From a virus: a stretch of 64,000 bases of DNA. Positions 568 to 41,656 of this stretch are shown one piece after another. The DNA lies in IMG/VR virus record IMGVR_UViG_3300009605_000020, positions 1 to 64,000 of that record. One strand, 5' to 3'. Within the stretch, counting starts at the first letter, position 1. Each line of letters begins with the position of its first letter. Below the pieces are notes generated by a model. The model saw only the letters and a program-made list of their open reading frames with translations, made no database searches and was not told where the DNA came from. The translations under genes were made by a program, and so were the position numbers.

Positions 568-575
568 TATATAGT
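568..575 (-). promoter_or_regulatory. ACTAWWTA intergenic element (ACTATATA)
   Basis: ACTATATA on the coding strand in the 42-nt gap after the tape measure gene, 17 nt before the ATG of the next gene. It is a member of the recurrent intergenic motif set and is read as a candidate late promoter element (inference). Confidence 0.5.
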
Positions 576-592
576 TAGCAACTAAGAACTTA

Positions 593-2725
593 TTAACCGC
601 CGCCGGTTAGATATGCAGGTCTGCCAAACTTGTTATTCAGGTCTACATTAGTTTTATAAAGATCGCGACCTTCTGCTTGCAAAACTACAGTGGTGGGGGC
701 TGACCTTTCCACTCCAACTTTCTTCATTTCCTGAGTTAACTCCCCAATTTTGTCAGCCAACAGTCTAGTGCTGCCTTCCTCAGTTCTTGTCGGGAGATTC
801 GCAACCGTCTGCAACATTCCTTCGGGACCTCTATTTAGAGCGGCCGTGGGCGCTACTGCGCGAGATGCTCCAGCACCAACCACATTCCGGCGAGAGGGAG
901 CAACAGCTCCACCACCGCCGCCGGCATGCGGGCTAATTATGCCCTCGGCAGCAAGAGTGGCGCGACCGACCTCTGTGCTGCCTCTCACCACCGAGCGCGC
1001 CCGGCCGGTGGCAGCTTGGGCAGCTCCGATGGTGAATGCGACCCCGGCCAATTTGGCGCCAGTTACAAGTAAGGGAATTGCAATTGGGACCAGTCCCGAA
1101 GCGAGCGCAGCGAGGCCGCCAACGATCATTAATCCTCCCACAACATACATAATAGTCTTAGCTTTGGTCACAAATTCTTCTATCGCGCGGCCGGCACCTC
1201 CGGCGCCGATTATCATATCCTGAAATCCTCTCACCATAGGCAGAATGGTCTCTTCTATAAGAGGACGCAAATCAATCAACAAGGCAGCAAATGTTGCGTT
1301 CACTTGTTCCATAATCGATTGCACCTTAGCGGCCTGAGATTCTAATTTTGCCTGAGCGAGCGCTTGTTTTTCCATTTCAACTGTGGCGGCTCCAAATATT
1401 CTTCCTGATTCTTCCACGCTCATACCCAAGGCATCAGCAATCGCCATCTTTTCATAGCGTCCAAGCTGATCAAACTGTACGCCGGCCATATCTATAGAAC
1501 GCTGCAAAATATCAATACGCTCTTCTTCGGTAGCATTCAACATATCAATTGAATTTAAATAAGGGCCGCCTAGGATAGCGTTTAAACGCCCCACTGCTTG
1601 GCCAGCTGAATCAAATTGATCGAATTGGGCGACTAGGCCTAATAATTTGTCTACTCCTAATCCCGTTTCCTTAGCATGTTTGGCGAGACCATCAAAGACC
1701 TTCATCATATCTTTGCCATGGCGCGCCAAGATGGGAGCAGCTGCAGCGAAGGCGGCCGCTATTTCGGAGGGCGGCATCTTCAAAGCATCTGCTGTTGATT
1801 TAAGATCTCGCAACAAAGTCTCGGCTTCACTTCCCGTCATGCCCATTGCGCGAGTTGCAAAATCTAAGTTCTGGGCTGATACCTGAGCAGAGATACCAAA
1901 TTCTGCCAGGAGTGAGGTGGTTTTGGCTATATTGGTTTGTGTATGACCCGACAGCTGTGTAAACGCGGACATGTCCGTATATAAGGTTGTCCACGCGTCG
2001 CCCGCTTCCTGTATTGTGACACCGGAAAAAGCAGTTGCGCGCTGCATTTGTGTCATCATGATGTTATATTCGTCACCAGCTCCAGTGGTACGCTTAAATT
2101 GGCTTATTACTTCGTCTTGCGCTTTAACTAAATCAATTGCTTTCCAGACATAAGCAGTAAGACCTTCAGATATCTTAGACAACCCGGCCGTTACAAGTGC
2201 GCCGGCGCTGAACATCTTCTTGAACCCGGCAACGACGCCGGCTATGCCTTCTTTACTATAGAGGCGTGTCCTCTGGTCCAGTTGTTTGGTGGCTGTCGAC
2301 AGCCCAAATAATACCTCGGCCCATTCTTTACCGACATCGATGCCCTGCTCCTCGAAAGTAAGACGATCGCGCATGCCGGAAAGGCGCTTGGCCTCCTCTT
2401 CGGTCAGTGTGTCGAGGAGAGCAAGTTCATCTTCCTTAATTTTAATACTCAGCCTCTTGATCTCAATTTCAAGCTTTAGCTGCTTATTTTTTTCTTTTGT
2501 CGCCTTCGCCAGCTCTTTTTGAAGTTCCAGGAAAGCCCTGTCTCTGATAAGATCTTCTTCCAGGTGCCGGGTGTCGCGAGCGCTGCGGCCGCCCGGGGCT
2601 GCAGCGCCACCGGCGCCTCCAGGGCCACCGCCGCCTCCAGCGCCACCGCCGCCTCCAGCGCCACCGCCGCCTCCAGCGCCGCCGCCTCCAGCGGCCGCAA
2701 AATATATTCTTTTATAAGTACTCAT
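593..2725 (-). CDS. Tail tape measure protein
   Basis: The 710-aa product has the layout of a phage tape measure protein, which sets tail length and is released at DNA ejection. Residues 13-46 are almost pure glycine and alanine. Residues 53-120 form a charged coiled coil. The middle is alpha-helical, with phage tape-measure features such as LLAEFGISAQ, LDFATRAMGMTG and LGMSVEESGRIFGAA. Around residues 525-570 there is a long hydrophobic stretch (MYVVGGLMIVGGLAALASG and following) that could insert in the host membrane. It lies after tube and chaperone-like genes and before the hub gene, as in other contractile-tail phages. The ATG at 2725 is preceded by TAGGG. It is short for a tape measure protein, so a second tail-length factor is possible. 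Confidence 0.8.
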   Translation of the reverse strand: MSTYKRIYFAAAGGGGAGGGGGAGGGGGAGGGGGPGGAGGAAAPGGRSARDTRHLEEDLIRDRAFLELQKELAKATKEKNKQLKLEIEIKRLSIKIKEDELALLDTLTEEEAKRLSGMRDRLTFEEQGIDVGKEWAEVLFGLSTATKQLDQRTRLYSKEGIAGVVAGFKKMFSAGALVTAGLSKISEGLTAYVWKAIDLVKAQDEVISQFKRTTGAGDEYNIMMTQMQRATAFSGVTIQEAGDAWTTLYTDMSAFTQLSGHTQTNIAKTTSLLAEFGISAQVSAQNLDFATRAMGMTGSEAETLLRDLKSTADALKMPPSEIAAAFAAAAPILARHGKDMMKVFDGLAKHAKETGLGVDKLLGLVAQFDQFDSAGQAVGRLNAILGGPYLNSIDMLNATEEERIDILQRSIDMAGVQFDQLGRYEKMAIADALGMSVEESGRIFGAATVEMEKQALAQAKLESQAAKVQSIMEQVNATFAALLIDLRPLIEETILPMVRGFQDMIIGAGGAGRAIEEFVTKAKTIMYVVGGLMIVGGLAALASGLVPIAIPLLVTGAKLAGVAFTIGAAQAATGRARSVVRGSTEVGRATLAAEGIISPHAGGGGGAVAPSRRNVVGAGASRAVAPTAALNRGPEGMLQTVANLPTRTEEGSTRLLADKIGELTQEMKKVGVERSAPTTVVLQAEGRDLYKTNVDLNNKFGRPAYLTGGG
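2588..2689 (-). repeat. Glycine-coding tandem repeat in tape measure N-terminus
   Basis: About 100 bp of GC-rich sequence built on an 18-bp unit (plus strand gccaccgccgcctccagc), three near-identical copies with shorter degenerate flanks. It encodes repeated GGGGGA. The repeat stays in frame, so copy-number change would alter only linker length. Confidence 0.85.
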
Positions 2726-2735
2726 CTATGCTGCC

Positions 2736-3116
2736 CTACTTGAAAGGCCACAATAGATCTGTTTCTTTTTCAAACCGCTCTACTGCTCGATTTAGAGTGT
2801 ACTTGGACTCTAGTGTTTTTTCGTCAGTGAGCCCGAGATCTATATAATTTTGCATGTAATCTTTTTCACTCTTCAACGCTGTTGTAAAAACTTCAACTTG
2901 CTGGGGAGTCCCAACGATTTTAACTCTCGGAGCGCTGAGATCTTGTGTCTCTTGTGCCTCTCGACGGAGATCGAGAAAAGGATCTGGAGGTTCTGGAGGG
3001 AACAAATGTCGTAGCAATAACTTTACGGCGCCGGCAAATTGTGCTATAAAAGACTCATTGAGAGTCTTTTCCTTAGCAGACAAATTGATAACATATGGAA
3101 TCATTTCTTCCGGCAT
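2736..3116 (-). CDS. Conserved hypothetical protein between chaperone-like genes and tape measure
   Basis: A 126-aa protein from an ATG at 3116 with an AGGGGTGA ribosome binding site. The N-terminal half has a short helix and a proline-rich segment (LFPPEPPDPF). The C-terminal half is charged and helical (residues 75-120). No signal peptide or membrane segment is visible. I do not recognise a family. It ends 10 nt before the tape measure ATG, so it probably belongs to the tail-assembly unit, perhaps as a chaperone or hub component. An ACTAATTA element sits 23 nt before the start. Confidence 0.7.
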   Translation of the reverse strand: MPEEMIPYVINLSAKEKTLNESFIAQFAGAVKLLLRHLFPPEPPDPFLDLRREAQETQDLSAPRVKIVGTPQQVEVFTTALKSEKDYMQNYIDLGLTDEKTLESKYTLNRAVERFEKETDLLWPFK

Positions 3117-3139
3117 ACTATATCACCCCTAGTGTATAT

Positions 3140-3147
3140 TAATTAGT
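3140..3147 (-). promoter_or_regulatory. ACTAWWTA intergenic element (ACTAATTA)
   Basis: ACTAATTA on the coding strand in the 51-nt gap upstream of the 126-aa gene, 23 nt before its ATG. Candidate late promoter element by recurrence (inference). Confidence 0.55.
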
Positions 3148-3167
3148 ATCCTAGCAGCAAAACCGTA

Positions 3168-3347: not shown

Positions 3348-3351
3348 GTAG

Positions 3352-4203: not shown

Positions 4204-4217
4204 TCATCACCTCTTTT

Positions 4218-4817
4218 CTAAATTACCGGGGACGGCAGCGTCGTAGTGCTAAATGCTGATGCCAAGCCGGCCGCGGCTCCTGTTTCGTAGGTGGCCCAAT
4301 CATACTTAAGAGACATAGTCACAGTGAGGATACCGTCTCCACTATAATCTAGATCGCCAAACTTAGTACTGTCGATCCAAGCATTGTTCAAAGTCCACAC
4401 ACCAACTACTCCGCCTTCTCCGTCTAATTCACGAATAATCACATCTCCCAAAGCCGCCAGAGCATCTGCTTTATTAATGGTTCCCACGGGGTCGCCGGTA
4501 TTGAAGGCGCCCGCTTGTTCATCGGGAGTAAGATAACCAGACTTCATCAGCGCGGCATAAAGAAGCGCGTTTCCGTCAGGATCTACAGAGTTAACAATCG
4601 TAACTGAAATTGCGTCCCAGGAAACCGTTCCAGGATAGTGATATTCATTTCCTAAAAACCTATGAGTAACTGGGCTAATAGTATATCCGGGAGTTCCAGC
4701 TGTCATAGCTAGATATTCTTGATAGGTAGAACCGTCCTCGGTTGTCAGATTAGTAAAATTAATTAAATATCTGTGTTGTCTCTTCGGTTCCGAAGCTGCT
4801 AAATTCCAAAATGCCAT
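4218..4817 (-). CDS. Tail tube protein, gp19-like
   Basis: A 199-aa protein of the T4 gp19 tail-tube type. The N-terminus MAFWNLAASEPKRQHRYLI resembles tube proteins that open with a short basic helix. The C-terminal half has WTLNNAWIDSTKFGDLDYSG and ILTVTMSLKYDWATY, the typical last strands of the tube barrel. Tube subunits stack as hexameric rings inside the sheath and form the DNA channel. The gene follows the sheath gene directly, as in T4 (18-19). It has an ACTATTTA element and a hairpin upstream, which would allow a separate, abundant transcript. The start ATG at 4817 has a weaker purine-rich leader. Confidence 0.88.
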   Translation of the reverse strand: MAFWNLAASEPKRQHRYLINFTNLTTEDGSTYQEYLAMTAGTPGYTISPVTHRFLGNEYHYPGTVSWDAISVTIVNSVDPDGNALLYAALMKSGYLTPDEQAGAFNTGDPVGTINKADALAALGDVIIRELDGEGGVVGVWTLNNAWIDSTKFGDLDYSGDGILTVTMSLKYDWATYETGAAAGLASAFSTTTLPSPVI

Positions 4818-4839
4818 TATCTCTTAGTCTCCCTAAAAT

Positions 4840-4847
4840 TAAATAGT
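4840..4847 (-). promoter_or_regulatory. ACTAWWTA intergenic element (ACTATTTA) before tail tube gene
   Basis: ACTATTTA on the coding strand, directly after a hairpin and 22 nt before the tube ATG. The hairpin-then-motif order suggests termination followed by a new start (inference). Confidence 0.55.
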
Positions 4848-4869
4848 GGGGGTATATAAAATACCCCCC
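4848..4869 (-). terminator. Hairpin between sheath and tube genes
   Basis: On the coding strand GGGGGTAT and ATACCCCC form an 8-bp stem with a five-base loop, located after the sheath stop codon. The following sequence is ACTATTTAATTTT, only moderately U-rich. It could be a terminator, an attenuator or a stabilising 3' hairpin. The plus-strand side has a better T run, but no plus-strand gene needs it. Confidence 0.55.
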
Positions 4870-4876
4870 TTTTTTA

Positions 4877-7800
4877 TTAATCTACGAATGAGGCTCCCGT
4901 TCTTGTAATATTAAAGTCAAGAGCAATATATTCTATAGCACGCGTCGGCTTCAAAAAGATCTTCGCGTAGAGTATATTGCGGTCGATCAAATCAGCAGTT
5001 GTCGTACTATCATCTAGCACTAACTTATAATCAGATAGGCCAAAATTGGTCTTAACTTCTTCAAGGAAGGGATTAACTTGCCCCGTGAAACGATCCCAGG
5101 TCTTACGTACGTTCGGCTCGAACAGAATCTGACTCGCAATCTGAGAAATTCGCTTCTTGAGGAAGATCAATAGCCGTCGAACATTAATTCGATCCAACGC
5201 CGAAGGTGTAACTTGTAGCGTCTTCTGACCGAAAATTACTAGACCTTCCGCAGGGAACTTAGCAATCGGATTAACATTAGCCTCGTATAAATCATCCCGC
5301 ATCTTCCGCGTCAGCCGTTCAACCACATTAATGATTGGTACGCCGGCAGCTCCTACAGTAAGACCGCCTCGGTTAAATCCGGCCGGTGCAAACCATACCT
5401 CTGTTTTGCGTTGAGAGCTAGAGAAAACTCCAAGTGCCGCTATGGATGGAGGCGCCCACAGAATTTGTCCTGTGATGCTATCTCGCATCTGTACCCAAGG
5501 ATAGTAAGCACAAGCATAGCTTGTATTTACGCCCCTGTCTCGCAAGTCACTGACTGTCCTGGTGACGCTGCCGCGACGATCCGCAAAGCTGTCAGTATTT
5601 TCAGTCGTTGGAATATAGCCACCCTCAAGGTCGACTACCGCTAACGAGTCGCCGCGATCCTCACATGTATTCATGAGGTGGGTGGTAAGCCCCGGCTGAG
5701 TAATGCCCGGTACGGTGGCCAGATTCATTTCTACGACCTCTGGATCTGCGATTGAATCAACGGCTCGCTTAACACTATAGAAAGCATAGTTCCCAAATTC
5801 ACTTGGATTGTTGTCCAAGTCTGTATTATTAAACGGTTCCGGCTCTAAAATATCCAAGCCATCGAACCCGCTGTGAATCGGTATTGTAAACCGATCAAAC
5901 CCATCATCGAGAACGCTCTGCCATGTGCCTTGAGCAGTCAAGGAGGCGCCCGCGACGCGGGAGCCACTTACCCATACAGCATTGTTAGTCCCGCTGCCGC
6001 TGATATCATCAAGAGTAAAGACCGTCGAGGCTTCACATCCATCTGCCCCGGTATTAAATTGGTTAGCAGCACCAATTCCGCCCAAGGCTCGTAATAAATC
6101 TATATTTGACCTCTCAAATCGTAAACTCGATGGAGAGCGTCCCACCGCAAAGCCAAAGTAGGCATCAGTAAAGTTACCTATACCGCCATCTGAAGCACTT
6201 ATGCGCATCGCTGGGGCTGGGAATCTTATCGAAGCTGATAAACTTCCCGTCTTGCCGTGCACCAAATAGGTGCCATCTGTGGCACCGCCTAGGTCGACAA
6301 CATCAAACGCCGATCCAGTTCGACCAATATACGTACTACGTGGCCCGGAATTATCCGAGAAGAACACGTCAGCATATTTAACTATGCCGCGGGATCCGAA
6401 GGGAAGCATCTGCGCGTCGGGTGGGCCGCCCAGATCGACAGTAGAATCCATCTCAATGCGAATGTATTTGGATTGATTAATATATTGTCCATCTTCTTGA
6501 TAGCGTCGTTCGTTATCATTCCAAGTGCTAACTCGGTCACCGATCTTTCGTCCTACATAATTTAAAGAATTCGGATTTAAGTTACAATCATTAAATTGTT
6601 CCACGACTCGAACCACATTATCTGAATCGTCTAGTTTACGAACTTTCACGGTGAAAGTGCCATAATCTGTAGAGTCGTTTGTTGAAGCCTTGATACTCTC
6701 TATCGAAATCTTAAGGTTTCGACTAGTCCAGGCACCCGGCTCATCCATGGCATGGAATCTAAATAAGTTAGGCATGTTGGCCGGATTATAGGTGCCGGCA
6801 TTTGTACTAATGTCCTGACTAAAGATCCACGGAGTTTGAGCAGAAATCAAGGGATATTCTAAATTGCCCGCATTGTTGCCGGTCGCGGCGCCGTTGCCTA
6901 CCATAGGTAGCAGAGCAGCATAGGTAGTATCTCCTGAAGAAGCGCCAACTACGGTCTTAAGGTGCCTTTCATAAGACTCTCCAAGCCAATAAAATAGCTC
7001 ATCTTGAGTAGTCTGGGCATTTGTTAATTGAGGATTTGTATTAAAGACTTTGCGAATATATTTTGAACTATTTTCGTTAAAATTAAAAGCAGTTACTAAA
7101 TTATTGGTACCATCATAATTCTTAACAATTAATTTATACTCGTAGTCTCCGATTGATTCAATAAGACCGCATGTACCGGTTACCGCATTTGAGGTTCCCG
7201 CAAGAGTTCCAGTGAGAGCCAAGTTGGGTCCATTTGAAGAGCTTACAACATAAAATGTTGCTGCCAGAGCGCCGAAGACTTGGGAGCTGTCGTCTCTTCC
7301 TCCCGTAAATCCGGATACCGAAGCACTTAGATGATTGGCGGTTTCAACCTTGATGAGGGCGTTGTTGCCGGCGGCGCTGCACTCGTGCATCCTAAGCATT
7401 ACCGTGTCTGCGGCGCCCGGTATGTCGGACGCGAAGCCTACTACCTCGACGCCGGGCTGGCCGACTGCATCGTGGAAGCCGGCAGCTGAGTCTGTATTAT
7501 TTGTTCCTGAAGCAAAAGTTATTAGTCCAGGGCCCGGGTGTGGAGGAAGGACCGCGCCGAAACCGGGGCCCGGGCTGAACTCCGACCGATATCCGGTAGA
7601 AGAAGTTATTGCGAAGAAATCAGTACCAATTGGTAATGAACTCGAAGCTGGGCCGGGACCGTCAAAGACGATGCTACCGGTGGCCTGGTTACAGCACGGA
7701 TTGCAGGAGCCCGTATTAAAAACGAACAGCCCGTAAACGCCCGCACCGTTGCTATTGTTAGCACTGTCTACTGTCCAGCCCGCGTCTCCGGTGATAGTTT

Positions 7801-8134
7801 TATCGGAACTCTCGGCTCCCAGTAGACGTACATAAGTTAAAGGAGAACTATTTCGAAGATAAGCTTGCGCTGCGTAAGGACCATAGGTGGGGCCCACTGT
7901 GTTGCCGTCGCGCCAAATATCACTGTTTTCGCCACCGCCACCAGGAACCGGGTTACCGAATACACTTATAAATTCCGAAAACGAATTTAGTGTAACGGGG
8001 CGTAGGCCGGGACCTGAACGGGCGCGCCCTATTACGACCGGCCCTATCCCCGCTGGGGATGCCGGAAGCTGCGAGTTATCAATTTCATTAATAAAAACGC
8101 CAGGTGAAACAAACCTATACTTCTTAACTGACAT
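4877..8134 (-). CDS. Contractile tail sheath protein, gp18-like, enlarged
   Basis: A 1085-aa sheath protein, much longer than T4 gp18 (659 aa). The N-terminus has KYRFVSPGVFINEIDNSQLP and VVIGRARSGP, typical sheath opening strands. The C-terminus has RINVRRLLIFLKKRISQIAS, then FEPNVRKTWDRFTGQVNPFL, the conserved core that forms the contracting mesh. The extra length lies between roughly residues 130 and 790, with beta-rich, Gly/Ser/Asp-rich sequence and a cysteine cluster (SCNPCCNQ), probably domains decorating the outside of the tail. It starts at ATG 8134 with AAAGGAGATC and has an 82-nt leader region with an ACTATTTA element. Confidence 0.93.
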   Translation of the reverse strand: MSVKKYRFVSPGVFINEIDNSQLPASPAGIGPVVIGRARSGPGLRPVTLNSFSEFISVFGNPVPGGGGENSDIWRDGNTVGPTYGPYAAQAYLRNSSPLTYVRLLGAESSDKTITGDAGWTVDSANNSNGAGVYGLFVFNTGSCNPCCNQATGSIVFDGPGPASSSLPIGTDFFAITSSTGYRSEFSPGPGFGAVLPPHPGPGLITFASGTNNTDSAAGFHDAVGQPGVEVVGFASDIPGAADTVMLRMHECSAAGNNALIKVETANHLSASVSGFTGGRDDSSQVFGALAATFYVVSSSNGPNLALTGTLAGTSNAVTGTCGLIESIGDYEYKLIVKNYDGTNNLVTAFNFNENSSKYIRKVFNTNPQLTNAQTTQDELFYWLGESYERHLKTVVGASSGDTTYAALLPMVGNGAATGNNAGNLEYPLISAQTPWIFSQDISTNAGTYNPANMPNLFRFHAMDEPGAWTSRNLKISIESIKASTNDSTDYGTFTVKVRKLDDSDNVVRVVEQFNDCNLNPNSLNYVGRKIGDRVSTWNDNERRYQEDGQYINQSKYIRIEMDSTVDLGGPPDAQMLPFGSRGIVKYADVFFSDNSGPRSTYIGRTGSAFDVVDLGGATDGTYLVHGKTGSLSASIRFPAPAMRISASDGGIGNFTDAYFGFAVGRSPSSLRFERSNIDLLRALGGIGAANQFNTGADGCEASTVFTLDDISGSGTNNAVWVSGSRVAGASLTAQGTWQSVLDDGFDRFTIPIHSGFDGLDILEPEPFNNTDLDNNPSEFGNYAFYSVKRAVDSIADPEVVEMNLATVPGITQPGLTTHLMNTCEDRGDSLAVVDLEGGYIPTTENTDSFADRRGSVTRTVSDLRDRGVNTSYACAYYPWVQMRDSITGQILWAPPSIAALGVFSSSQRKTEVWFAPAGFNRGGLTVGAAGVPIINVVERLTRKMRDDLYEANVNPIAKFPAEGLVIFGQKTLQVTPSALDRINVRRLLIFLKKRISQIASQILFEPNVRKTWDRFTGQVNPFLEEVKTNFGLSDYKLVLDDSTTTADLIDRNILYAKIFLKPTRAIEYIALDFNITRTGASFVD

Positions 8135-8188: not shown

Positions 8189-8196
8189 TAAATAGT
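8189..8196 (-). promoter_or_regulatory. ACTAWWTA intergenic element (ACTATTTA) before sheath gene
   Basis: ACTATTTA on the coding strand, 54 nt before the sheath ATG, in an 82-nt gap. The leader is longer than at most other sites. Candidate late promoter element (inference). Confidence 0.55.
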
Positions 8197-10993: not shown

Positions 10994-11001
10994 TAATTAG
11001 T
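10994..11001 (-). promoter_or_regulatory. ACTAWWTA intergenic element (ACTAATTA) before neck genes
   Basis: ACTAATTA on the coding strand 15 nt before the neck gene ATG and 16 nt after a strong hairpin that follows the capsid gene. With such short spacing the transcript leader would barely keep the GAGG site, which constrains where transcription could start. Confidence 0.55.
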
Positions 11002-11017
11002 GACTCTATCATAAATA

Positions 11018-11048
11018 GAAAGCCCCAGCTCATAGAGCCGGGGCTTTC
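11018..11048 (-). terminator. Strong hairpin after major capsid gene
   Basis: On the coding strand GAAAGCCCCGGCTC, a three-base loop TAT and GAGCTGGGGCTTTC form a 14-bp stem with one G-U pair. It lies about 30 nt past the capsid stop codon and is followed by TATTTATGATAG. This is the best terminator-like structure in the window. Placement after the most abundantly needed protein suggests termination or 3' end protection of the capsid message. Confidence 0.75.
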
Positions 11049-11077: not shown

Positions 11078-12895
11078 TTAGCCTTGCATATCGGCTATTA
11101 CAACTAGACCATACATGTCAGGACGCACCATCTGCTTGGCGTACCGAGTCATGACACCCTTACGGGGCACGAAATCTTCGACACCAAAGATGGTGGGGGT
11201 TGTCTGGAGCGGTACGTACGGAGCGTACACATATCCGGACTCTAGGAAACTGCCTCCCCGTCGTCCAACCAAAACAACGTTTCGGAGGAAGTACGGGTCA
11301 ACATAGATGTCCCACTTCTTGGAAAGATTACCAACCTTAACAGCACCAGCAGTACCACGATCACTATCCACCGCTACATTAGCGCGGAAACCAGCCGTGA
11401 ACTCTAGGATGTTAGCAACTTCAGGTCCGCAGACAATAAAGTTGGCACCACCCCGGAGAGTCTTCCGGTGAATCTGGGCCGACACATCATTAACAGTCTC
11501 AACAAGAGTTTCATACCACTCACTTACATTACCGGTGAAATCAGCGGCAATCTCTAGAGGGGTACCAAGCTCACGATTGAGGAACGTACCAGGAGCACGC
11601 GACCAATATCGCAAACCAGCCGTAGAACCCTTAACGAGATCGTTAAGAATTTCACGGTCAATCTCTAGAGCAATCTGTTCAGATAGAATCTGAGTAAGCT
11701 CGACCTCGGCATCCAAATTGTGATAGGCATTAAGATCCTGTCCCAATTCTGGAGTCCACTTGGCCTTGAGCTTCTTGGTAATCGCGGTGACAGCCACGGA
11801 ATCGATCTGAATATCGATCTCGGGGATGAACTCACTACCTTCCAAGCCCCACTGAGCGTGACCTTCGACTGAGCCGAGGGCACCTCCGTTAACGAAGTTA
11901 TCTACCATAGGATAGGTAAAGGTAACTTGTTCGGCCTGCACACTACTAGTAATATCAACCGCTGTGAAAGCTCCCGGATATGACGCCACTACCATAAGAA
12001 GGTTAGCAGAGCCACGATCATTAATGGGGCCTCCCGCAGACGCAGAACTGAATCGCCAAAGACGACGACACAGAGTACCAGAGTTCCAAACACCGAAGCC
12101 GTTTGCAGTATTAATCTGAATAGCCGTAAGGTCATCCATATTGATATCCTCATCGTTGTTTGCATCCTGAATACCATCCGCGTTACCATCAGCGCCAACG
12201 CTGACAATAGGAACTTCGAAGACTGCAACAGTCGTTGAGCCAGAAACTAGATCCGGATCGTACGCCGTCAAGGTACCCAGAGTCTGAACCCCATCGGCGG
12301 CCGGGAATTGGTCGTCGTCACCAGCCGTTCCTCCAACGAGAACCGTGAAGGTTCCAGCTGCAGGGGGGCCGGCCGTAGTGTTAGATCCGGTCGGAGATGC
12401 ATAACCGTTGTTAAGACCATATGGTCCCTGTTCCGAAAATACGCCCGCAAGATCAACACCTTGGGTAATCTGCGAACCAACCACGTCGCCTCCGAAGAGG
12501 GATGTGTTAGCCGGATAACCGAGACGATCTGTCATCGTGCCAGTGGCACCGATATCAGGCGAAACCGTGAAGTCCAGGAAGAAGATCAGACCAGAAGGCA
12601 AGCTCATGGGCTGAACGCTAACGAGATCGTTAGCAATTAAATTGCCGAATACACGGCGAACGAGGGGGAATGCGACAGCCGCAAAACCCTCCACGTCACC
12701 AACAGCCATGCTGCTGGATTCACGAAGTAGCTCTTTTGCCTGATTTTCAAGCAAAGATGCCATTCCGTTTCGAAGGTGATCACTTTCAAGACCCTCTAGG
12801 AGACCGGTCTTTTCCCACTTGGAGATAAGAGCCGCGCCCTCTTTTGAGAGGTCTCGATTAATGATACCTTCGGTTAACTTTTGAACAATAGACAT
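11078..12895 (-). CDS. Major capsid protein, gp23-like
   Basis: A 605-aa protein of the T4 gp23 type (T4: 521 aa). The N-terminal region has MASLLENQAKELLRESSSM, then FPLVRRVFGNLIANDLVSVQ and PMSLPSGLIFFLDF, the family's hallmark. An LLRE-S sequence near residues 56-60 is a plausible prohead-protease cut site (family rule: I/L-x-E). Residues about 233-257 carry DGNADGIQDANNDEDINMDD, a calcium-loop-like insertion in the surface domain. The C-terminal third has FIVCGPEVANILEF and GYVYAPYVPLQTTPT, typical of the HK97-like P domain. The Shine-Dalgarno AAAGGAGGT is one of the strongest in the window, fitting very high expression. The gene follows the scaffold by only 24 nt. Confidence 0.95.
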   Translation of the reverse strand: MSIVQKLTEGIINRDLSKEGAALISKWEKTGLLEGLESDHLRNGMASLLENQAKELLRESSSMAVGDVEGFAAVAFPLVRRVFGNLIANDLVSVQPMSLPSGLIFFLDFTVSPDIGATGTMTDRLGYPANTSLFGGDVVGSQITQGVDLAGVFSEQGPYGLNNGYASPTGSNTTAGPPAAGTFTVLVGGTAGDDDQFPAADGVQTLGTLTAYDPDLVSGSTTVAVFEVPIVSVGADGNADGIQDANNDEDINMDDLTAIQINTANGFGVWNSGTLCRRLWRFSSASAGGPINDRGSANLLMVVASYPGAFTAVDITSSVQAEQVTFTYPMVDNFVNGGALGSVEGHAQWGLEGSEFIPEIDIQIDSVAVTAITKKLKAKWTPELGQDLNAYHNLDAEVELTQILSEQIALEIDREILNDLVKGSTAGLRYWSRAPGTFLNRELGTPLEIAADFTGNVSEWYETLVETVNDVSAQIHRKTLRGGANFIVCGPEVANILEFTAGFRANVAVDSDRGTAGAVKVGNLSKKWDIYVDPYFLRNVVLVGRRGGSFLESGYVYAPYVPLQTTPTIFGVEDFVPRKGVMTRYAKQMVRPDMYGLVVIADMQG

Positions 12896-12919: not shown

Positions 12920-13945
12920 TTATTGTTGTTTCAAACCTGCCAAACGCAGCATTCGTTCCATATTGGGATCGACTGCTGTAGAAGAATCTCCTCTTGAGCG
13001 TCTATTAGAAGACAAGAGCATTGAAGTTGTCGGTTTGCTAACTGCTTCGCGTAGTGATTCTGAACGGCGAACCTTGCGGTCACCCACTGCGCTTTGAAGA
13101 GTATCAAATAACATCTTCGTTTCTTCTATTGATGTGGCATTTCGAACAGCTTCGACAATTCTCTCTTTTTGTCGCTCATTCAAGGAGGCACTATTCAAAG
13201 CCTTGTTCTGATAAAGGAGTTTGGCATTCTCCAAAATCAAAATATTTAGTTGGTTCTTCGCTTCTCCGAGCAAAGAACATAAATCTTTAATTTCATTCTT
13301 ATATTCTTTTTCTTGTGATTCGTAAAGTTCTGCGGTTCTGTATTTTTCTTGCTCGTCGGTTACTTCTTGCGATTGGACGGCAGCCGCTGCTATTTCTGCC
13401 TCCATTTCCGACACGTGTTCAGAGGTTTCACCGCTGGCGACAGGAGCCCAGCCGTGGAGGCGAGGAGCAATATCAACTGTCAACTCTTCTGCGAGGGCGT
13501 CCACCAGCTCATCAGAAATTTCCATTTCTTCTAGGGCGCCTACTTCGGGTGCAGCTCCCATTTCTTCGGGAGCACCAAGATCTGAGGTAGCTGCTTCTCC
13601 GCCGAAGATTTCCTCGGCAGTTTCTTCTGAACTCAATAGCTCGGAGGCCTCGACATCTTCACCGGCTTCCTCTTCCGCATGGAGGCGCGCTCTTAAATCA
13701 TCAAAATCGATTTCAATCATTTCGTCGTCTTCTAGACCTTCAATACTGGCGTCCTCATGAGCTAAAGGCACATCATCCAAAAAAGATGTATCCACAGCAG
13801 GAGCTTCGTCCTGCTCTAATAGAGTATCCAGGGCGCCCTTTACTTCTTGAGAATACTTCTCTAATACAGCATTCTCAGCATTTTTTAAAGCGGCCTCTTT
13901 TAGTGCGGTAGCATCTACAATGGCCTGTTCTAGCAATGAAGACAT
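12920..13945 (-). CDS. Prohead core scaffold protein, gp22-like
   Basis: A 341-aa acidic, helical protein directly before the capsid gene, as T4 gene 22 is before 23. The N-terminus MSSLLEQAIVDATALKEAAL matches the scaffold family. Residues 50-190 are very rich in Glu and Asp, 195-300 form coiled coil. The C-terminus RMLRLAGLKQQ resembles a short motif at the end of the 697-aa head protein (RWKTLAGIKGDC). Family knowledge: the core is degraded by the prohead protease, leaving room for DNA. Start ATG 13945 has GTAGGAG and an ACTAATTA element 32 nt upstream. Confidence 0.8.
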   Translation of the reverse strand: MSSLLEQAIVDATALKEAALKNAENAVLEKYSQEVKGALDTLLEQDEAPAVDTSFLDDVPLAHEDASIEGLEDDEMIEIDFDDLRARLHAEEEAGEDVEASELLSSEETAEEIFGGEAATSDLGAPEEMGAAPEVGALEEMEISDELVDALAEELTVDIAPRLHGWAPVASGETSEHVSEMEAEIAAAAVQSQEVTDEQEKYRTAELYESQEKEYKNEIKDLCSLLGEAKNQLNILILENAKLLYQNKALNSASLNERQKERIVEAVRNATSIEETKMLFDTLQSAVGDRKVRRSESLREAVSKPTTSMLLSSNRRSRGDSSTAVDPNMERMLRLAGLKQQ

Positions 13946-13977: not shown

Positions 13978-13985
13978 TAATTAGT
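13978..13985 (-). promoter_or_regulatory. ACTAWWTA intergenic element (ACTAATTA) before scaffold-capsid unit
   Basis: ACTAATTA on the coding strand in the 88-nt gap, 32 nt before the scaffold ATG. It would drive scaffold and capsid genes up to the hairpin at 11018-11048 (inference). Confidence 0.55.
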
Positions 13986-17112: not shown

Positions 17113-17120
17113 TAAATAGT
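17113..17120 (-). promoter_or_regulatory. ACTAWWTA intergenic element (ACTATTTA) before fibre genes
   Basis: ACTATTTA on the coding strand in a 120-nt gap, 61 nt before the 600-aa fibre gene. This is the longest motif-to-start distance seen. The rest of the gap shows no gene. Confidence 0.5.
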
Positions 17121-19128: not shown

Positions 19129-19136
19129 TATTTAGT
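19129..19136 (-). promoter_or_regulatory. ACTAWWTA intergenic element (ACTAAATA) before adhesin pair
   Basis: ACTAAATA on the coding strand 15 nt before the adhesin ATG. The surrounding 134-nt gap is the longest in the window. It also holds a possible long-range stem (TCGCTGA with TCAGCGA) but no credible gene. Confidence 0.5.
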
Positions 19137-21032: not shown

Positions 21033-21440
21033 TTAGTCGGTTAAGCCCGAACCGGTTAAATGGAACATCTGGTCGGAGGGGATATTAGTTAGCTCTCCTA
21101 TAGCCGTATATGAAGTACTGCCGGAGTTAGTAAGTGGTGCAGAAATAAATATTTCTCGACACTTGACTCCAAATGATACACTATCATTGTTGCTGTTAAG
21201 CGCTACAAAATGTAACCCACCAATAACATTTCCGGAACCAGTAGCATTGAAGTGAACTAAAACATCATCGTTGCTGGCATCGGTATTAATAACTGTTACC
21301 GATCTGACTGTTCTAGGGAATACAATGCGATCTTCAGATCCTGGCGTTAGCGCGGTGGAGCCCGTTATCCATGGAATTCCTGATACCTGATATGAGCCTA
21401 CATTAAATAGTCCCGGCTTCATGTGGTTATACGTGGTCAT
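21033..21440 (-). CDS. Small beta-sandwich structural protein
   Basis: A 135-aa protein with HMKPGLFNVGSYQVSGIPWI at the start, strands SVTVINTDASNDDVLVHFNA and REIFISAPLTNSG. I recall similar short proteins as virion components in marine T4-like phages, often beside fibre genes. A decoration or fibre-anchoring role is likely but not shown. ATG 21440 has TTGGAGAAG, with an ACTAATTA element 27 nt upstream. It heads the fibre transcript. Confidence 0.65.
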   Translation of the reverse strand: MTTYNHMKPGLFNVGSYQVSGIPWITGSTALTPGSEDRIVFPRTVRSVTVINTDASNDDVLVHFNATGSGNVIGGLHFVALNSNNDSVSFGVKCREIFISAPLTNSGSTSYTAIGELTNIPSDQMFHLTGSGLTD

Positions 21441-21467: not shown

Positions 21468-21475
21468 TAATTAGT
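21468..21475 (-). promoter_or_regulatory. ACTAWWTA intergenic element (ACTAATTA) before fibre cluster
   Basis: ACTAATTA on the coding strand between bS21 and the 135-aa gene, 27 nt before the latter's ATG. It separates the bS21/head transcript from the fibre cluster (inference). Confidence 0.55.
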
Positions 21476-22667: not shown

Positions 22668-22668
22668 T

Positions 22669-25754: not shown

Positions 25755-25783
25755 AATTTATTCCTTTTAAAGCTTTAAAGTAG

Positions 25784-25834
25784 TCAACTGCCTTTGCAGC
25801 AGCGACGAACTGGTTGTAACATCCATTTAGTCAT
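25784..25834 (-). CDS. Possible 16-aa micro-ORF with good ribosome site
   Basis: ATG 25834 lies 7 nt after AAAAGGAG and opens MTKWMLQPVRRCCKGS before TGA at 25784-25786. It overlaps the last codons of the membrane protein gene upstream. A second frame across the same 72-nt gap is open longer but has no start codon. The gap may be a leader peptide, a remnant gene or chance. Low confidence. Confidence 0.2.
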   Translation of the reverse strand: MTKWMLQPVRRCCKGS

Positions 25835-26137: not shown

Positions 26138-26644
26138 CTACATCTTGTAGCGAAGTGGAATATAATAATACCCCGGGACCATAGCGCCCTTCTCTGCCCC
26201 TTGCGGGACCTCCCCAAGCTCTGTAGTATCTCGATCGGCCGGGGTGATATAATATTTTTCCAGGTCTCTTTCGTAGTTCTGAGCGGTTAATCGGGCATCA
26301 GCCTCGTCAACAACAAACTCGGATATCACATACACCGCGGACTGCAGGGAATTGGCATTTTCACTAATCGGGATTTCCCCTTCTAATGAATTAAATATAT
26401 TCCCCCCCTGAATGCTATCTCTTATCAAAACTCCTTTATCGGCCATAAACTCAAAAAATCTTGTTTGAGTTCCGTAAGCATCTTCAATACCGTCGCTCTT
26501 CGGAAAAGTTATTACCTTATTGTCTTTAGGTAACAAAACTATATCGATAAGATCGTGGTCCATTATTAAAAGATTTCCTTCTAATGTTTTCCGGGCATTG
26601 AGTTCTACTGTAGCCTGCGGACCTCCCACGGTAATCTTAATCAT
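26138..26644 (-). CDS. Conserved hypothetical protein after portal-linked gene
   Basis: A 168-aa protein. The N-terminal part is beta-rich (MIKITVGGPQATVELNARKT), the middle has RDSIQGGNIFNSLEGEIPIS and SLQSAVYVISEFVVDEADAR, a pattern I recall from marine T4-like phages without a known role. No membrane segment. Its ATG overlaps the end of the upstream gene by 8 nt, so translation is coupled. A structural or head-assembly role is inferred from its position between portal and protease. Confidence 0.6.
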   Translation of the reverse strand: MIKITVGGPQATVELNARKTLEGNLLIMDHDLIDIVLLPKDNKVITFPKSDGIEDAYGTQTRFFEFMADKGVLIRDSIQGGNIFNSLEGEIPISENANSLQSAVYVISEFVVDEADARLTAQNYERDLEKYYITPADRDTTELGEVPQGAEKGAMVPGYYYIPLRYKM

Positions 26645-27461
26645 TTGATTGAATTTCCCGTGTCAACTCTTGTATTCGTAATACTTGAGATATTATATCT
26701 TCTGAAGGAACGGACTCTTTAAAGCCCTCTAAAATATTAAGCACTTCTTTTGTTTTTTCGACCATCGCCTCGTCTGTGAAAATTTCTTCAAGCTTGAGAG
26801 AATCGGTCACTATCTTTTTAAGGCGCCCGATTTCTTCGTTTAAATATAGTTTTAACTCAAGACCGTTGTCGGCAAAAGAGGCAATATATTTACTTAGTAA
26901 ATCCTTTTGCTCTTTTAGCAACGTGGTGTACTGTTCATTATATTTTTTAACAAAGGACCGATATACAATATTATCGATTGATTGCATGTGGGTTTCTTTT
27001 GTATCATCAACCGCGCGCATTGTGTTGATTACTGTATCTTCGTACAAAACGCGCTGTTTGACTGATACGGAATTATTAAAAATAGCCGATATCGTGGCCA
27101 ACGATTTAAAGTTGGGAACAAATGTATTCCACGATTCATTAGAAAGAGATTTATTGATCTTATTGATAACTTTAGTTTGGCTATCAAAAATATCCTTACT
27201 GTCTATTAGAGCCCGGGCCTTCTTGGTTTCATTTAAAAGCTTCTCAGCTAAATGAGGTTCCACATTGGTGGTTTCTGCTAGAGTCTTATAAAGTATTAAT
27301 TCTTGACCAAGCGGGGTTCCTTTTTTAAAGTGTTCTTTAATAATAGCAGAGACCACATTTTTTCGTTTGTAATCTTTATCTACTATCGTTTTAGTTAACT
27401 CTTTAATCAGCACTTCATACAAAAAGGCCGTATTTCTTTTTTTATTGTGCTTTGCTTTCAC
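26637..27461 (-). CDS. Helical head-module protein, function unknown
   Basis: A 274-aa, mostly alpha-helical, Lys/Glu-rich protein starting from a GTG (27461) inside the portal gene's last codons. The N-terminus KAKHNKKRNTAFLYEVLIKE and the heptad-rich C-terminal half (residues 180-270) suggest a rod or scaffold-like shape. I recall relatives in marine T4-like phages next to the portal, but none with a known function. It could assist portal or prohead initiation. No signal peptide or membrane segment. Confidence 0.6.
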   Translation of the reverse strand: MKAKHNKKRNTAFLYEVLIKELTKTIVDKDYKRKNVVSAIIKEHFKKGTPLGQELILYKTLAETTNVEPHLAEKLLNETKKARALIDSKDIFDSQTKVINKINKSLSNESWNTFVPNFKSLATISAIFNNSVSVKQRVLYEDTVINTMRAVDDTKETHMQSIDNIVYRSFVKKYNEQYTTLLKEQKDLLSKYIASFADNGLELKLYLNEEIGRLKKIVTDSLKLEEIFTDEAMVEKTKEVLNILEGFKESVPSEDIISQVLRIQELTREIQSND

Positions 27462-29445
27462 TTGTCTTGGTCTCCACTTCTTTAGTTTCCGCTTCTTTAG
27501 TCTCCAGCTCCGTAATTAGTTTTCTGATCGCTCTAGAGTTCTCAAATAAACTAGTTTCTTCACTATTATCATCATTATAATTAGGCTCTAGCTCCTCATA
27601 AAGTGCATTGACATTTAATAGTTGATGTCCGGGGAAAATATCTCGGCGTGAAGCTCCGTGACTTGGACGTAATTTTCTAGTAGTGGGGCCTCGTTTGTTG
27701 GTTTTTCGAGTATCATCTTTCTTTTTATAATACTTTTTTCCTTTTGCTTGTGGTTGTAAACTTATTCGAGTGGGCTTGTCTTCTCTGCGAGCCGGTGCAG
27801 CCAGAAGAGTGCTTTCTTCACCACCGGCAGCTTCACCACCTAGTTCACCACCCAGCTCGCCCCCGGCAGCTTCGCCACCTGGTACGTCTCCGAGTTCACC
27901 ACCTAGTTCACCACCCAGCTCGCCTCCAAGTTCGTCACCCATTGGAGGCGCTCCTCCGAGGCCTCCGCCGGCGACTTCTTGAGCGGCCAATTCCGTAACC
28001 GCATCGAGAGCTGCTTGATATTTTCTATCATAAAATGCCTCTCTTTGGTTACGCAAAAACTCTTCGTCAGTTAGATGTAAAATATTTTTCGCTATCCAAT
28101 GTTTACTAAACATACCTTCTACAACATTATTAGCAAGATCGAATTTTGTTCGAATATGCTCAATTTCTTGTAATTCTGCTAAACGAGATGGATTGTTCAA
28201 ACTCATTTTAAATGAAATTAAGTCTTGACCCCGGAAGCCGAGAGTAAATAGATGAACGACACCAATTTTTTCAAACTCTGATATGAGAGCGCGCTGCAGC
28301 CTTTGGATGGTTCGCGCAAAACGAATATCTTTTTGGGCCAAAGTAGTTTTATCTTCAGAGCCTCCTTCAGTCATCATCAAATAGGAGTGCGGGATCTTAA
28401 TGGCTGAAAATAGTTTGTCGCGAATATATTTAACATCATCAATATCATTTAATGAATCGGCGCCCTTAAGTGTAGTTATATCAGATCCAACACCTCCGCG
28501 AATAGGAATAAAATAATCTTCTTCAACCGAAAGAGGATTATATCTTAAATCAACGCGACCAGTAGTTGGATCAACTATAGAGTTTCTCTTTAAAGAAGTT
28601 TTAACTTTCTCCATATATTGCTCAACATCTTGAGGAGGTATATTGCCCACATCAATTTTAAACATACGCCGCTCGGGGGCCCGCACGACGCGATAAGCCA
28701 ACATAGCGTCTTCTATTAAAACGAGTTGACGCCAAATACGTCTCGCCGGGTCCAGAACAGAAGTTCCATAGGGGGCATGCTTGTCATTACCCAAAACTCT
28801 AAAGTGCGCAACTTGCCAATTTTCAAAAGTCATGTTGGCGGAATTCCACTGGAATTGCACATAATTAGGATTAGTCGGGTCCTGGCCCTCTAGCCTCTCC
28901 ACTTCGCCAGACGGAAGGCCGATAACACCCTTAACTCCCAGTACTTCATCAATATCTAGATACAGAAAAAAATCGCCAAACTTGCACATTGTTCTGGCCC
29001 AGCCAAAGGCGTTGAATTCAATATTAAGCATTTCATAGAACAAAGATTCAAGAATCTCTTTGATCTCTTCGTTGCGACAATCTATCTTGAGAAGTCTATT
29101 GTACTCATTAGAAGTCGTCATTTCATCAGCGTAAATATCCATAGCTGATGCAATCTCGGGCATATATTCCATTTGATCAAAATCAATATAACGTTCGTTA
29201 CGATTTTGATTCCGCATTGCAGCGGACGTCATCATATTATAATTGCGCGATAAATTATCCGAAGAACGCTTAAATTGATGACCACTTAAACTTTTAAAAC
29301 GAGTCTGGTATTTATCTAGCGCCGAACGACGTTCTTCTCTTGTAAACTGAGCCCGATAATTTATTAGCGGGCCAGAAAAAATTCTCGTCAGTCTTTTAAA
29401 AAGTGGAGATGAGGGGTTACGTGGATTGTTCTTGTTGTCTGCCAT
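27442..29445 (-). CDS. Portal vertex protein, gp20-like
   Basis: A 667-aa portal protein (T4 gp20: 524 aa). The N-terminal half has NERYIDFDQMEYMPEIASAM, DIYADEMTTS and FGWARTMCKFGDFFLYLDID, the typical portal crown and clip entry. MLAYRVVRAPERRMFKIDVG and FSAIKIPHSYLMMTEGGSED follow. Portals form the 12-subunit ring through which the terminase pumps DNA. Unusual is a low-complexity acidic insert near residues 500-545 built from GGEL units, followed by a basic segment (KGKKYYKKKDDTRKTNKRGP). The gene starts 4 nt after the terminase stop, with AAGGGATAA as ribosome site. Confidence 0.93.
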   Translation of the reverse strand: MADNKNNPRNPSSPLFKRLTRIFSGPLINYRAQFTREERRSALDKYQTRFKSLSGHQFKRSSDNLSRNYNMMTSAAMRNQNRNERYIDFDQMEYMPEIASAMDIYADEMTTSNEYNRLLKIDCRNEEIKEILESLFYEMLNIEFNAFGWARTMCKFGDFFLYLDIDEVLGVKGVIGLPSGEVERLEGQDPTNPNYVQFQWNSANMTFENWQVAHFRVLGNDKHAPYGTSVLDPARRIWRQLVLIEDAMLAYRVVRAPERRMFKIDVGNIPPQDVEQYMEKVKTSLKRNSIVDPTTGRVDLRYNPLSVEEDYFIPIRGGVGSDITTLKGADSLNDIDDVKYIRDKLFSAIKIPHSYLMMTEGGSEDKTTLAQKDIRFARTIQRLQRALISEFEKIGVVHLFTLGFRGQDLISFKMSLNNPSRLAELQEIEHIRTKFDLANNVVEGMFSKHWIAKNILHLTDEEFLRNQREAFYDRKYQAALDAVTELAAQEVAGGGLGGAPPMGDELGGELGGELGGELGDVPGGEAAGGELGGELGGEAAGGEESTLLAAPARREDKPTRISLQPQAKGKKYYKKKDDTRKTNKRGPTTRKLRPSHGASRRDIFPGHQLLNVNALYEELEPNYNDDNSEETSLFENSRAIRKLITELETKEAETKEVETKTSESKAQ
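27818..27940 (-). repeat. GGEL-coding repeat with exact 30-bp direct repeat
   Basis: Low-complexity sequence coding for repeated Gly-Gly-Glu-Leu. The segments 27832-27861 and 27895-27924 are identical over 30 bp and 63 bp (21 codons) apart, so they remain in frame. Recent slippage or recombination would explain identity at third codon positions. Confidence 0.8.
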
Positions 29446-33124: not shown

Positions 33125-33533
33125 GTTCTAATCCAAACAATCTAGCCAACTCGCGCGCTAAAACATCTGGGTCATTATACCCCTCTTCGACTAATTTTTT
33201 AATTTCTTTCTTTTTGTCAGCCTCCAGCTCTTGATTTTTTTCAGCATATTCTTTCTCTAATATCTCAATATTTTTATTATATTCAGCCAAGACGCGCTTT
33301 TTTTCTTCAGCTTCGCGGTTATGAATTTCGTTTAATTTATCAATCTCTTTTTTATATGACTCGCGTGAGTTTTCCAAGAGGTCGATAAGAGTGGCCACAT
33401 ACGTGCCATTTTTTGTAAAAGCCCATACCAAGATAGCAAGCACTAGCGCAACTAACAGCAATGGTATATACCAGTAGTGCTTTAGCCATGACAATATTTT
33501 TTTAACTCTACTTTTTAACAGCAAAAGATTCAC
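33117..33533 (-). CDS. Inner-membrane coiled-coil protein, i-spanin-like
   Basis: A 138-aa protein with an N-terminal basic segment, one membrane helix at residues 21-40 (WYIPLLLVALVLAILVWAF) and a long charged coiled coil (residues 50-120). This is the topology of an inner-membrane spanin (Rz-like), which reaches across the periplasm to fuse membranes at lysis. It starts at a GTG (33533) that shares bases with the holin stop, with GGGAG seven nt upstream. It could instead be another membrane-anchored rod; placement after a holin-like gene favours lysis. Confidence 0.55.
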   Translation of the reverse strand: MNLLLLKSRVKKILSWLKHYWYIPLLLVALVLAILVWAFTKNGTYVATLIDLLENSRESYKKEIDKLNEIHNREAEEKKRVLAEYNKNIEILEKEYAEKNQELEADKKKEIKKLVEEGYNDPDVLARELARLFGLEHG

Positions 33534-33718
33534 TAATTAACTCCCTTGAGGCGCGCCACTGTATCAACTATAGTTTGGCCGCCGATATATACCGTGGTTA
33601 TAATAACCCAATCGCCAGAAGTTAAATCCGCAAACAATAATAATGCCGTGGCGGTTGCCCAGGCCAAAAGCTTACGAGAAACTAACTTGTTTAATCCTCT
33701 ATCTAAAAGATGTCTCAT
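33533..33718 (-). CDS. Holin-like small membrane protein
   Basis: A 61-aa protein with two hydrophobic segments: RKLLAWATATALLLFADL and WVIITTVYIGGQTIVDTVA. Size, spacing and short charged ends fit small phage holins, which open the inner membrane at a set time. I start at ATG 33718 with AAAGGAG seven nt upstream; the in-frame TTG at 33736 would put the ribosome site inside the coding region. An ACTAATTA element lies 20 nt before the start, giving the cassette its own candidate promoter. Confidence 0.65.
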   Translation of the reverse strand: MRHLLDRGLNKLVSRKLLAWATATALLLFADLTSGDWVIITTVYIGGQTIVDTVARLKGVN

Positions 33719-33738
33719 GATATCTCTCCTTTTCAATA

Positions 33739-33746
33739 TAATTAGT
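33739..33746 (-). promoter_or_regulatory. ACTAWWTA intergenic element (ACTAATTA) before lysis cassette
   Basis: ACTAATTA on the coding strand, 20 nt before the holin-like ATG, in the gap after the recombination nuclease gene. Late-type expression of the lysis and packaging genes would follow if the motif is a promoter (inference). Confidence 0.55.
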
Positions 33747-33773
33747 TCGGAGAGATGAACCAGGCGAGATTAT

Positions 33774-36929: not shown

Positions 36930-36939
36930 AGAGTTTTCT

Positions 36940-39607: not shown

Positions 39608-39615
39608 CGCATTCC

Positions 39616-40647: not shown

Positions 40648-40656
40648 TTTTATACC

Positions 40657-41631
40657 CTATCCTGTATACCTGACATACCGTATCGGTATATCTATTTTGT
40701 ATCCCGTTGACACCCCTGTGATGCGTACGGGAGAATCTATAAACTTATACTTACCCGCCGCGATGTCCGATCCATCAGAGTTAATAAGATCTGTGGTGCC
40801 TACATGACCCAGCTGATCAAACAAGAAATCACTGGATCTCAATTCTACACTAGATCCAACACGGAAGGCTAGTCGCGTTCCTCGCGGTCCTAAAATAGAT
40901 GAATCAGCTGTAGAGCCTCCGGTGATATATATTACAAAAGCGCCGGCGCCACTTGCTGTTGAGGTGGCTACGTAATAACTAGCTATTTGGTCATCATCTA
41001 TAAAAGAGTAGGCAGCGGGAGCAATTCCAGTTGTGCTGGGCGCTGGCGGCGTGCCTCCGGGGGGGGAATACAACGATCCAAGTCTATTATCCAATTCGAT
41101 AATATAAGCTGTTTCTACCAGATCTGCATTGAGAGCCACATTGGGGCTTATTTCGACGGTATCTAGACCTTGGTCAGCAGCTATATTATTGGGGGTACCT
41201 CCTACCGTTGAGGCATTTAAAATGCCGGGGGAAAGAAAGCCGGAACCCATGCTGGTTAATTGGTCAACTGTAGTCTGGTTAACTGCAGCATAGAAAACGC
41301 CGTCAGAGTGTATTTTTGTATTTCCCTGGTCCCATAATTTAATTACCGGTAAATATAATAGATCGTTTCTATTAATGGACATTAGCTTAGATTTTAAATT
41401 GGATGTATTATTTGTAAAGGCTTCTAGAATTGGGGTCTGCAATATCTGCAAATCGTAGTATGCCGAGCCGTTCGGATTATCGATATCGTATAATCCATAA
41501 TTAATTTCATCGTCTCCTAAAGCAAACTTTGCTATTCGGAAGCTTCCGTCGCCACGCGCGAGCCTCATCCTGCCGGTATCTGTGAGTACCGCATCTAATA
41601 TAATGTCACCTGAATTGTCTAAGAATGCCAT
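40657..41631 (-). CDS. Tail/baseplate structural protein
   Basis: A 324-aa protein opening MAFLDNSGDIILDAVLTDTG, then RMRLARGDGSFRIAKFALGD, DEINYGLYDIDNPNGSAYYD and LQILQTPILEAFTNN. I recall this N-terminus as strongly conserved in marine T4-like phages among virion proteins of unknown role. The C-terminal part is beta-rich with glycine loops. ATG 41631 has AGAGAGGT, and an ACTATTTA element 17 nt upstream starts this group of three structural genes plus the DNA-metabolism island. Confidence 0.75.
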   Translation of the reverse strand: MAFLDNSGDIILDAVLTDTGRMRLARGDGSFRIAKFALGDDEINYGLYDIDNPNGSAYYDLQILQTPILEAFTNNTSNLKSKLMSINRNDLLYLPVIKLWDQGNTKIHSDGVFYAAVNQTTVDQLTSMGSGFLSPGILNASTVGGTPNNIAADQGLDTVEISPNVALNADLVETAYIIELDNRLGSLYSPPGGTPPAPSTTGIAPAAYSFIDDDQIASYYVATSTASGAGAFVIYITGGSTADSSILGPRGTRLAFRVGSSVELRSSDFLFDQLGHVGTTDLINSDGSDIAAGKYKFIDSPVRITGVSTGYKIDIPIRYVRYTG

Positions 41632-41648
41632 AAAATAACCTCTCTCTA

Positions 41649-41656
41649 TAAATAGT
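41649..41656 (-). promoter_or_regulatory. ACTAWWTA intergenic element (ACTATTTA) within baseplate block
   Basis: ACTATTTA on the coding strand 17 nt before the 324-aa gene's ATG, in a 45-nt gap. It is the only such element seen between the window's right edge and 33746. Confidence 0.55.

Follow-up and report, generated by a model that had tools for sequence, protein, structure and literature searches.

An octamer marking the gaps of a T4-like structural module is very probably a phage late-promoter element

The DNA analysed here, referred to below as the window, comprises positions 1 to 64,000 of the viral record IMGVR_UViG_3300009605_000020, that is, 64 kb out of a record totalling 78,404 bp. 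Encoded there, entirely on the minus strand, is the structural module of a T4-like myophage, with genes for a gp23-type capsid, tail tube, sheath, portal, terminase, prohead protease and baseplate, and in addition a primase and an SbcC/SbcD-type protein. We found no tRNA genes within the window, and a 9-kb stretch of it has no DNA similarity to known phages; relatives of its major capsid protein (MCP) number at least 590 in viral contigs, the nearest named ones being a 484-kb phage, Flavobacterium phage immuto, Microcystis phage Mel-JY01 and Rhodothermus phage RM378; the megaphage LR756508 is among the closest named ones. The gaps between these genes are marked by an octamer, ACTAWWTA (W is A or T), and we present evidence that it is very probably the -10-type element of phage late promoters read by a phage gp55-type sigma factor. 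Three genes recur in what follows:

11078..12895, minus strand: MCP gene, gp23 type, profile match to phrog_138
4218-4817, minus strand: tail tube gene
4877-8134, minus strand: tail sheath gene

A sequence-only reading of the window had listed eleven exact ACTAWWTA sites, and all eleven lie at the positions it claimed, on the minus (coding) strand, in the claimed split of five ACTAATTA, four ACTATTTA, one ACTAAATA and one ACTATATA. They are given here with the features that adjoin them:

568..575, minus strand: putative late-promoter box ACTATATA, exact match, ATG 550 17 nt downstream
3140..3147, minus strand: putative late-promoter box ACTAATTA, exact match, ATG 3116 23 nt downstream
4840..4847, minus strand: putative late-promoter box ACTATTTA, adjoining a terminator-like hairpin and preceding the tail tube gene
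4848..4869, minus strand: terminator-like hairpin GGGGGGTATTTTATATACCCCC, immediately upstream of box 4840..4847
8189..8196, minus strand: putative late-promoter box ACTATTTA, preceding the tail sheath gene
10994..11001, minus strand: box ACTAATTA, exact match, ATG 10978 15 nt downstream
11012..11019, minus strand: box TCTATTTA in the gap downstream of the MCP gene, the version kept in relatives
11018..11048, minus strand: intrinsic terminator hairpin of the MCP operon, immediately upstream of the boxes at 11012 and 10994
13978..13985, minus strand: putative late-promoter box ACTAATTA, preceding gene 12920-13945
17113..17120, minus strand: putative late-promoter box ACTATTTA, preceding gene 15249-17051
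19129..19136, minus strand: putative late-promoter box ACTAAATA, ATG 19113 15 nt downstream
21468..21475, minus strand: putative late-promoter box ACTAATTA, preceding gene 21033-21440
33739..33746, minus strand: putative late-promoter box ACTAATTA, within the loop of a Shine-Dalgarno-sequestering hairpin
41649..41656, minus strand: putative late-promoter box ACTATTTA, preceding gene 40657-41631

The next ATG lies 15-61 nt from the box, as had been reported, and the tally of twelve gaps, eleven of them with a box, is correct for gaps of at least 40 nt if a 61-aa open reading frame (ORF) at 33533-33718 counts as a gene. The near-match ACTAAATG that had been assigned to the twelfth gap (25755-25826, the sole window gap above 40 nt that lacks a box) is unconvincing; it straddles the stop codon of the upstream gene at the far end of the gap. 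Counting in both orientations, and in coding versus intergenic DNA, we find 11 copies of ACTAWWTA inside gaps, all 11 on the coding strand; in 2000 dinucleotide shuffles the gaps contained 0.41 copies on average and never more than 3. Over the whole window and both strands there are 30 copies against 12.4 expected, a number reached by none of 100 shuffles; 23 of these are on the coding strand and 7 on the opposite strand, the latter being about chance level. The octamer, though enriched in gaps, is not confined to them, there being about 12 more coding-strand copies within window genes. We also note a ACTAATTA at 27513-27520, within the portal gene and 51 nt ahead of the GTG start of gene 26637-27461, which may be an intragenic late promoter.

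The box is conserved. Across 80 loci surrounding capsid-gene relatives, drawn from viral contigs, coding-strand ACTAWWTA occurs 202 times between genes versus 23 times within them, and unsupervised word counts in the gaps of relatives yield CTATTTA and ACTATTTA. Of 75 readable relatives, 66 have a box in the gap that follows the capsid gene, always TCTATTTA, and the 60 nt preceding that gene have one in only 1 of 78. In the window the order in this gap is terminator (11048-11018), TCTATTTA (11019-11012) and then ACTAATTA (11001-10994); the ACTAATTA listed by the sequence-only reading is present, but the conserved box is the TCTATTTA 18 nt upstream of it. Among the named relatives, the cultured phage immuto has ACTATTTAT in the gaps of its late region, the late gaps of Mel-JY01 have ATATTTAT, with A at -12 in the numbering introduced below, and the gap word of RM378 is TTATTTAA; no clear word stood out in the gaps of the stretch of LR756508 that was examined. 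Immuto gaps outside the late region (before 80 kb of the record; L092, L091) are enriched in a separate word family, TTTAGGTATCAATAATT, possibly an early signal, of which one example, GGTATCAA, is found in 8 gaps versus about 0.1 expected.

The anatomy of the element was derived from 52 de-duplicated sites, with the box numbered -13 to -6 as in T4. The consensus is A-13 C-12 T-11 A-10 (T/A)-9 (T/A)-8 T-7 A-6; the search pattern fixed C-12, T-11, A-10, T-7 and A-6 and W at -9/-8, and the only results independent of it are the A at -13 and the preference for T at -9/-8. A purine stands exactly 6 nt downstream of the box at 44 of the 52 sites (p=7e-6), the strongest signal among 14 offsets, with neighbouring offsets weaker and the preference limited to the sixth and seventh nucleotides downstream. 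The T4 late box covers -13 to -6 (PMC1524935), so that +1 falls on the sixth nucleotide downstream, and we infer that the purine at this position is the transcription start. There is a weak A/T preference immediately downstream of the box, comparable to that seen in T4 late promoters (PMC2988020), and no conserved -35 element across the 52 sites. A T-rich upstream element at -28 to -25 was considered and set aside, as it consists mostly of terminator tails and is strongest at sites behind terminators. The T4 late box, TATAAATA, is not matched, ACTAWWTA being different or relaxed at 4 of 8 positions; the suggestion that the T4 box has been replaced therefore holds for those four positions but not for its T(-11)A(-10)..T(-7)A(-6) frame, which is kept. 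The positions unlike the T4 box are -12, -9 and -8, whose bases in T4 are flipped into pockets of gp55 (PMC7892883), together with -13.

One box, at 33746, is associated with a hairpin and a small ORF:

33722..33756, minus strand: inverted repeat ATCTCTCC...GGAGAGAT, with box 33739..33746 in the loop
33533-33718, minus strand: ORF of 61 aa containing two hydrophobic stretches, holin-like in appearance only

In read-through RNA the inverted repeat is predicted to hide the Shine-Dalgarno sequence of the ORF, and an RNA starting 6 nt past the box would be without the 5' arm of the hairpin. The folding z-score of the hairpin is -2.4 in the window and -3.2, -2.0, -2.8 and +0.7 in four relatives, a similar fold being present in three of the four. 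The same arrangement at the T4 genes e, soc, 49 and I-TevI stops late products being made early (PMC3014915), and the hairpin and box ahead of the 61-aa ORF resemble the control of T4 genes e and soc.

Some features might be expected if the octamer acted at the RNA level, as part of the leader or as a site of mRNA processing or stability, and were no promoter at all: one box falls within a hairpin loop predicted in the RNA, two boxes lie just 15 nt from the ATG, and mRNA processing occurs in T4-family phages. We consider this very improbable. Several boxes directly follow intrinsic terminators, at points where transcription has to begin anew; most sites have no surrounding hairpin; and the purine preference is limited to the sixth and seventh nucleotides downstream, as for a start site. 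The T4 frame T-11 A-10..T-7 A-6 is kept, moreover, and the record encodes a gp55 homologue, to which we return below.

Whether the box is instead read by a host sigma factor, as an extended or variant -10 element or as a Bacteroidota promoter, bears on a second class of promoter that we detect in a 194-kb relative (G005). The words TTGACA and TTATAAT stand out in the gaps of its 120-194 kb part, where sigma-70-like promoters (TTGACA/TATAAT) occupy 12 gaps versus 1.3 expected; in the 0-80 kb part they occupy 5 gaps versus 0.8 expected, and just one gap in the 120-194 kb part holds both a sigma-70-like promoter and a box. The gaps of the window record contain no sigma-70-like sites, versus 11 boxes. 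This pattern suggests that ordinary host promoters serve many other genes and the box serves late genes. The nearest cultured relatives include Flavobacterium phages, and the Bacteroidota sigma-A promoter consensus is TAnnTTTG at -7 with TTG at -33; at the sites, however, TTG does not accumulate at any single upstream position and the run of T is not followed by G, and the canonical TTGACA/TATAAT promoters of the long relative are nearly exclusive with the box. Recognition by a host sigma is thus, in our view, slightly less probable still than an RNA-level role. Least probable of all is that a phage-encoded RNA polymerase (RNAP) reads the box, as large phages of the phiKZ/AR9 type use their own enzyme, but no multisubunit RNAP match (PF00562, beta-subunit) was found in the record, six long relatives or immuto while all 14 control genomes gave one, and a search that had no positive control, and so proves nothing alone, gave no single-subunit RNAP match.

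The sequence-only reading had supposed that a gp55-type sigma is encoded elsewhere, and a homologue is indeed found in the same record:

77425-78126 of the record, minus strand, outside the window (13.4 kb beyond it): gp55-type sigma gene, phrog_234 match

The match of this protein to phrog_234 has E=1.3e-5 (1.9e-4 in a second search). A profile of its family, compared with a profile of nine canonical gp55 proteins, matches at 95.4% and E=2e-8 over 110 columns in the sigma-2 half. The gene is present in 6 of 7 window-clade records of at least 76 kb, the exception (G003) being a 76-kb fragment, and in 10 of 20 wider contigs, including all six of at least 160 kb. Immuto, Mel-JY01 and LR756508 encode the same two-domain protein at 28-41% identity, annotated as hypothetical or left unannotated. 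We assign the family to gp55 because of the profile comparison, the sequence of its sigma-2 half and its occurrence in almost all the long relatives tested. At the T4 pocket residues N13, L54, R57, F86, H95, Y97 and T99, the family has Y97 throughout, F or Y for F86 and for H95, and mostly T for N13 and for R57. A co-variation of residue 57 with the base at -12 fitted five lineages, with R alongside A-12 in T4 and Mel-JY01 and H or T alongside C-12 in Aeromonas phage Aeh1, the window clade and immuto, but failed a wider test, several Mel-like contigs having T57 with A-12.

Taken together, conservation, orientation, the terminators, the purine at the predicted +1, the separate sigma-70 class and the gp55 homologue support the proposal of a -10-like element for a gp55-type sigma; these, like the enrichment and the lack of an RNAP beta-subunit match, are computed results. 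The phage gp55-type sigma would displace the host sigma on host RNAP and read the box at -13 to -6 (A C T A W W T A, with relatives favouring T at -9/-8), and transcription would begin at the purine 6 nt downstream. Every box would be the point at which transcription resumes for a late operon (capsid, tail or baseplate), in many cases right behind an intrinsic terminator, while many remaining genes, in the long relative, would use ordinary sigma-70 promoters. That this particular sigma reads ACTAWWTA, and that the genes behind the boxes are late, we infer from this arrangement. Several points weigh against it: the dozen or so coding-strand copies within window genes, the very short leaders (about 10 nt) implied by the two boxes 15 nt from the ATG, gap calls based on mechanical ORFs with rule-chosen start codons, the weakness of the gp55 match of the record's own protein when taken alone (E 1e-5 to 2e-4), and matches of phrog_234 to two bacterial control genomes at E<=0.1.

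The sigma carries an extra domain. Nine canonical gp55 proteins, 155-186 aa long, all lack a second domain; those of the window clade have 233-245 aa and a conserved C-terminal domain, which is kept across lineages less than 35% identical to the clade. This domain is predicted with high confidence to be an all-helical helix-turn-helix (HTH) bundle (pLDDT 90), and structure searches with it return HTH proteins and sigma factors, the sigma factors scoring TMq 0.50-0.51 among the matches listed at E of 1-3, which is not significant; a fold search with the full-length model likewise placed several sigma factors near the top, at E>0.01. A sequence link from the domain to the RM378 sigma or to canonical gp55 was sought by profile comparison, which showed none. 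The family ends in the HTH domain and lacks an SLDFLYE-like clamp-binding tail, which is not evident in aligned cyanophage gp55 proteins either. No gp45-type clamp (phrog_223) was found in the long relatives G005, G013 and G014, in immuto (160 kb) or in Mel-JY01 (190 kb), the same search finding four T4-like control phages at E<1e-63, and the window's 78-kb record fragment gave no match. A search for the gp33 co-activator gave no match, with a query that recovered two of three controls, weakly. A review of T4 late transcription reported that a fused late sigma was not found and asked why none exists (PMC2988020). We propose tentatively, and at rather less than even odds, that a large T4-like lineage, mostly marine and freshwater, uses a two-domain late sigma in which gp55 sigma-2 is fused to a C-terminal sigma-4/gp33-like HTH domain that binds the RNAP flap, with neither clamp tail nor gp45. 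Late transcription would then lack the clamp-mediated coupling to replication that T4 has. The family may thus be a candidate for the fused late sigma, and, if this is true, it is the protein that the T4 review reported as not found.

Some further features of this DNA deserve mention. A single 1051-aa ORF at 33774-36929 matches SbcD-like families over residues 1-272 and SbcC-like families over 329-1050, resembling a fusion of T4 gp47 and gp46. The structural region also has very large ORFs, of 3767 aa (49889-61192) and, past the window, 2375 aa (record 64923-72050). In a close relative (G001), ARAGORN predicts a phage tmRNA at L100:6301-6614 with the tag ANNADYDLALAA.

The phages of this abundant lineage are uncultured, and their regulation is not described in the papers we found; the present analysis provides both a late-promoter word and a named sigma for them. 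Pelagimyophages are another such uncultured group, in which late-promoter searches by the T4/cyanophage approach failed (PMC7029224). The part that could surprise specialists is the attached sigma, not the promoter, and the cultured homologues in immuto and Mel-JY01 are open to direct tests of why, in T4, gp55 is always separate from gp33 and both are always coupled to the clamp.

If its C-terminal domain binds the flap, the gp55-like protein would be like T4 gp33, a beta-flap-binding late co-activator, in having an HTH-type domain in the place of sigma-4; gp33, however, is a separate 112-aa protein, whereas here the domain is fused to gp55. Immuto, Mel-JY01 and LR756508 are alike in their two-domain gp55-like protein, although the word of Mel-JY01 differs. 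The RM378 sigma (phrog_1740) shares a recognisable sigma-2 and a sub-threshold sigma-4 match, and in the alignment containing the gp55-like family 6 of 50 members weakly match phrog_1740, but profile comparison between it and the family is not significant and its gap word is different.

With T4 late promoters the element shares a short -10-type box with T-11 A-10..T-7 A-6, no conserved -35, a start 6 nt downstream (predicted here), a weak A/T preference before +1, a position ahead of capsid and tail genes in one orientation, and a gp55 sigma-2 homologue. It differs in having A-13 C-12 and W at -9/-8 where T4 has T-13 A-12 and A at -9/-8; T4 gp55, at 185 aa, terminates in the clamp-binding SLDFLYE, unlike the longer protein with a C-terminal HTH described here, and T4 has the gp45 clamp, none being found in the relatives. 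A published precedent is Aeh1, whose late box is CTAAATA (PMC1524935) and which shares the hallmark C at -12, with a or g at -13 (PMC1524935, PMC2988020); it differs in keeping AA at -9/-8, in a gp55 of 173 aa that lacks a C-terminal HTH and in having a gp45 clamp. The Aeh1 box indicates that the T4-type late-promoter family tolerates C-12, and the promoter described here is a T4-type late-promoter variant with a close published precedent in Aeh1.

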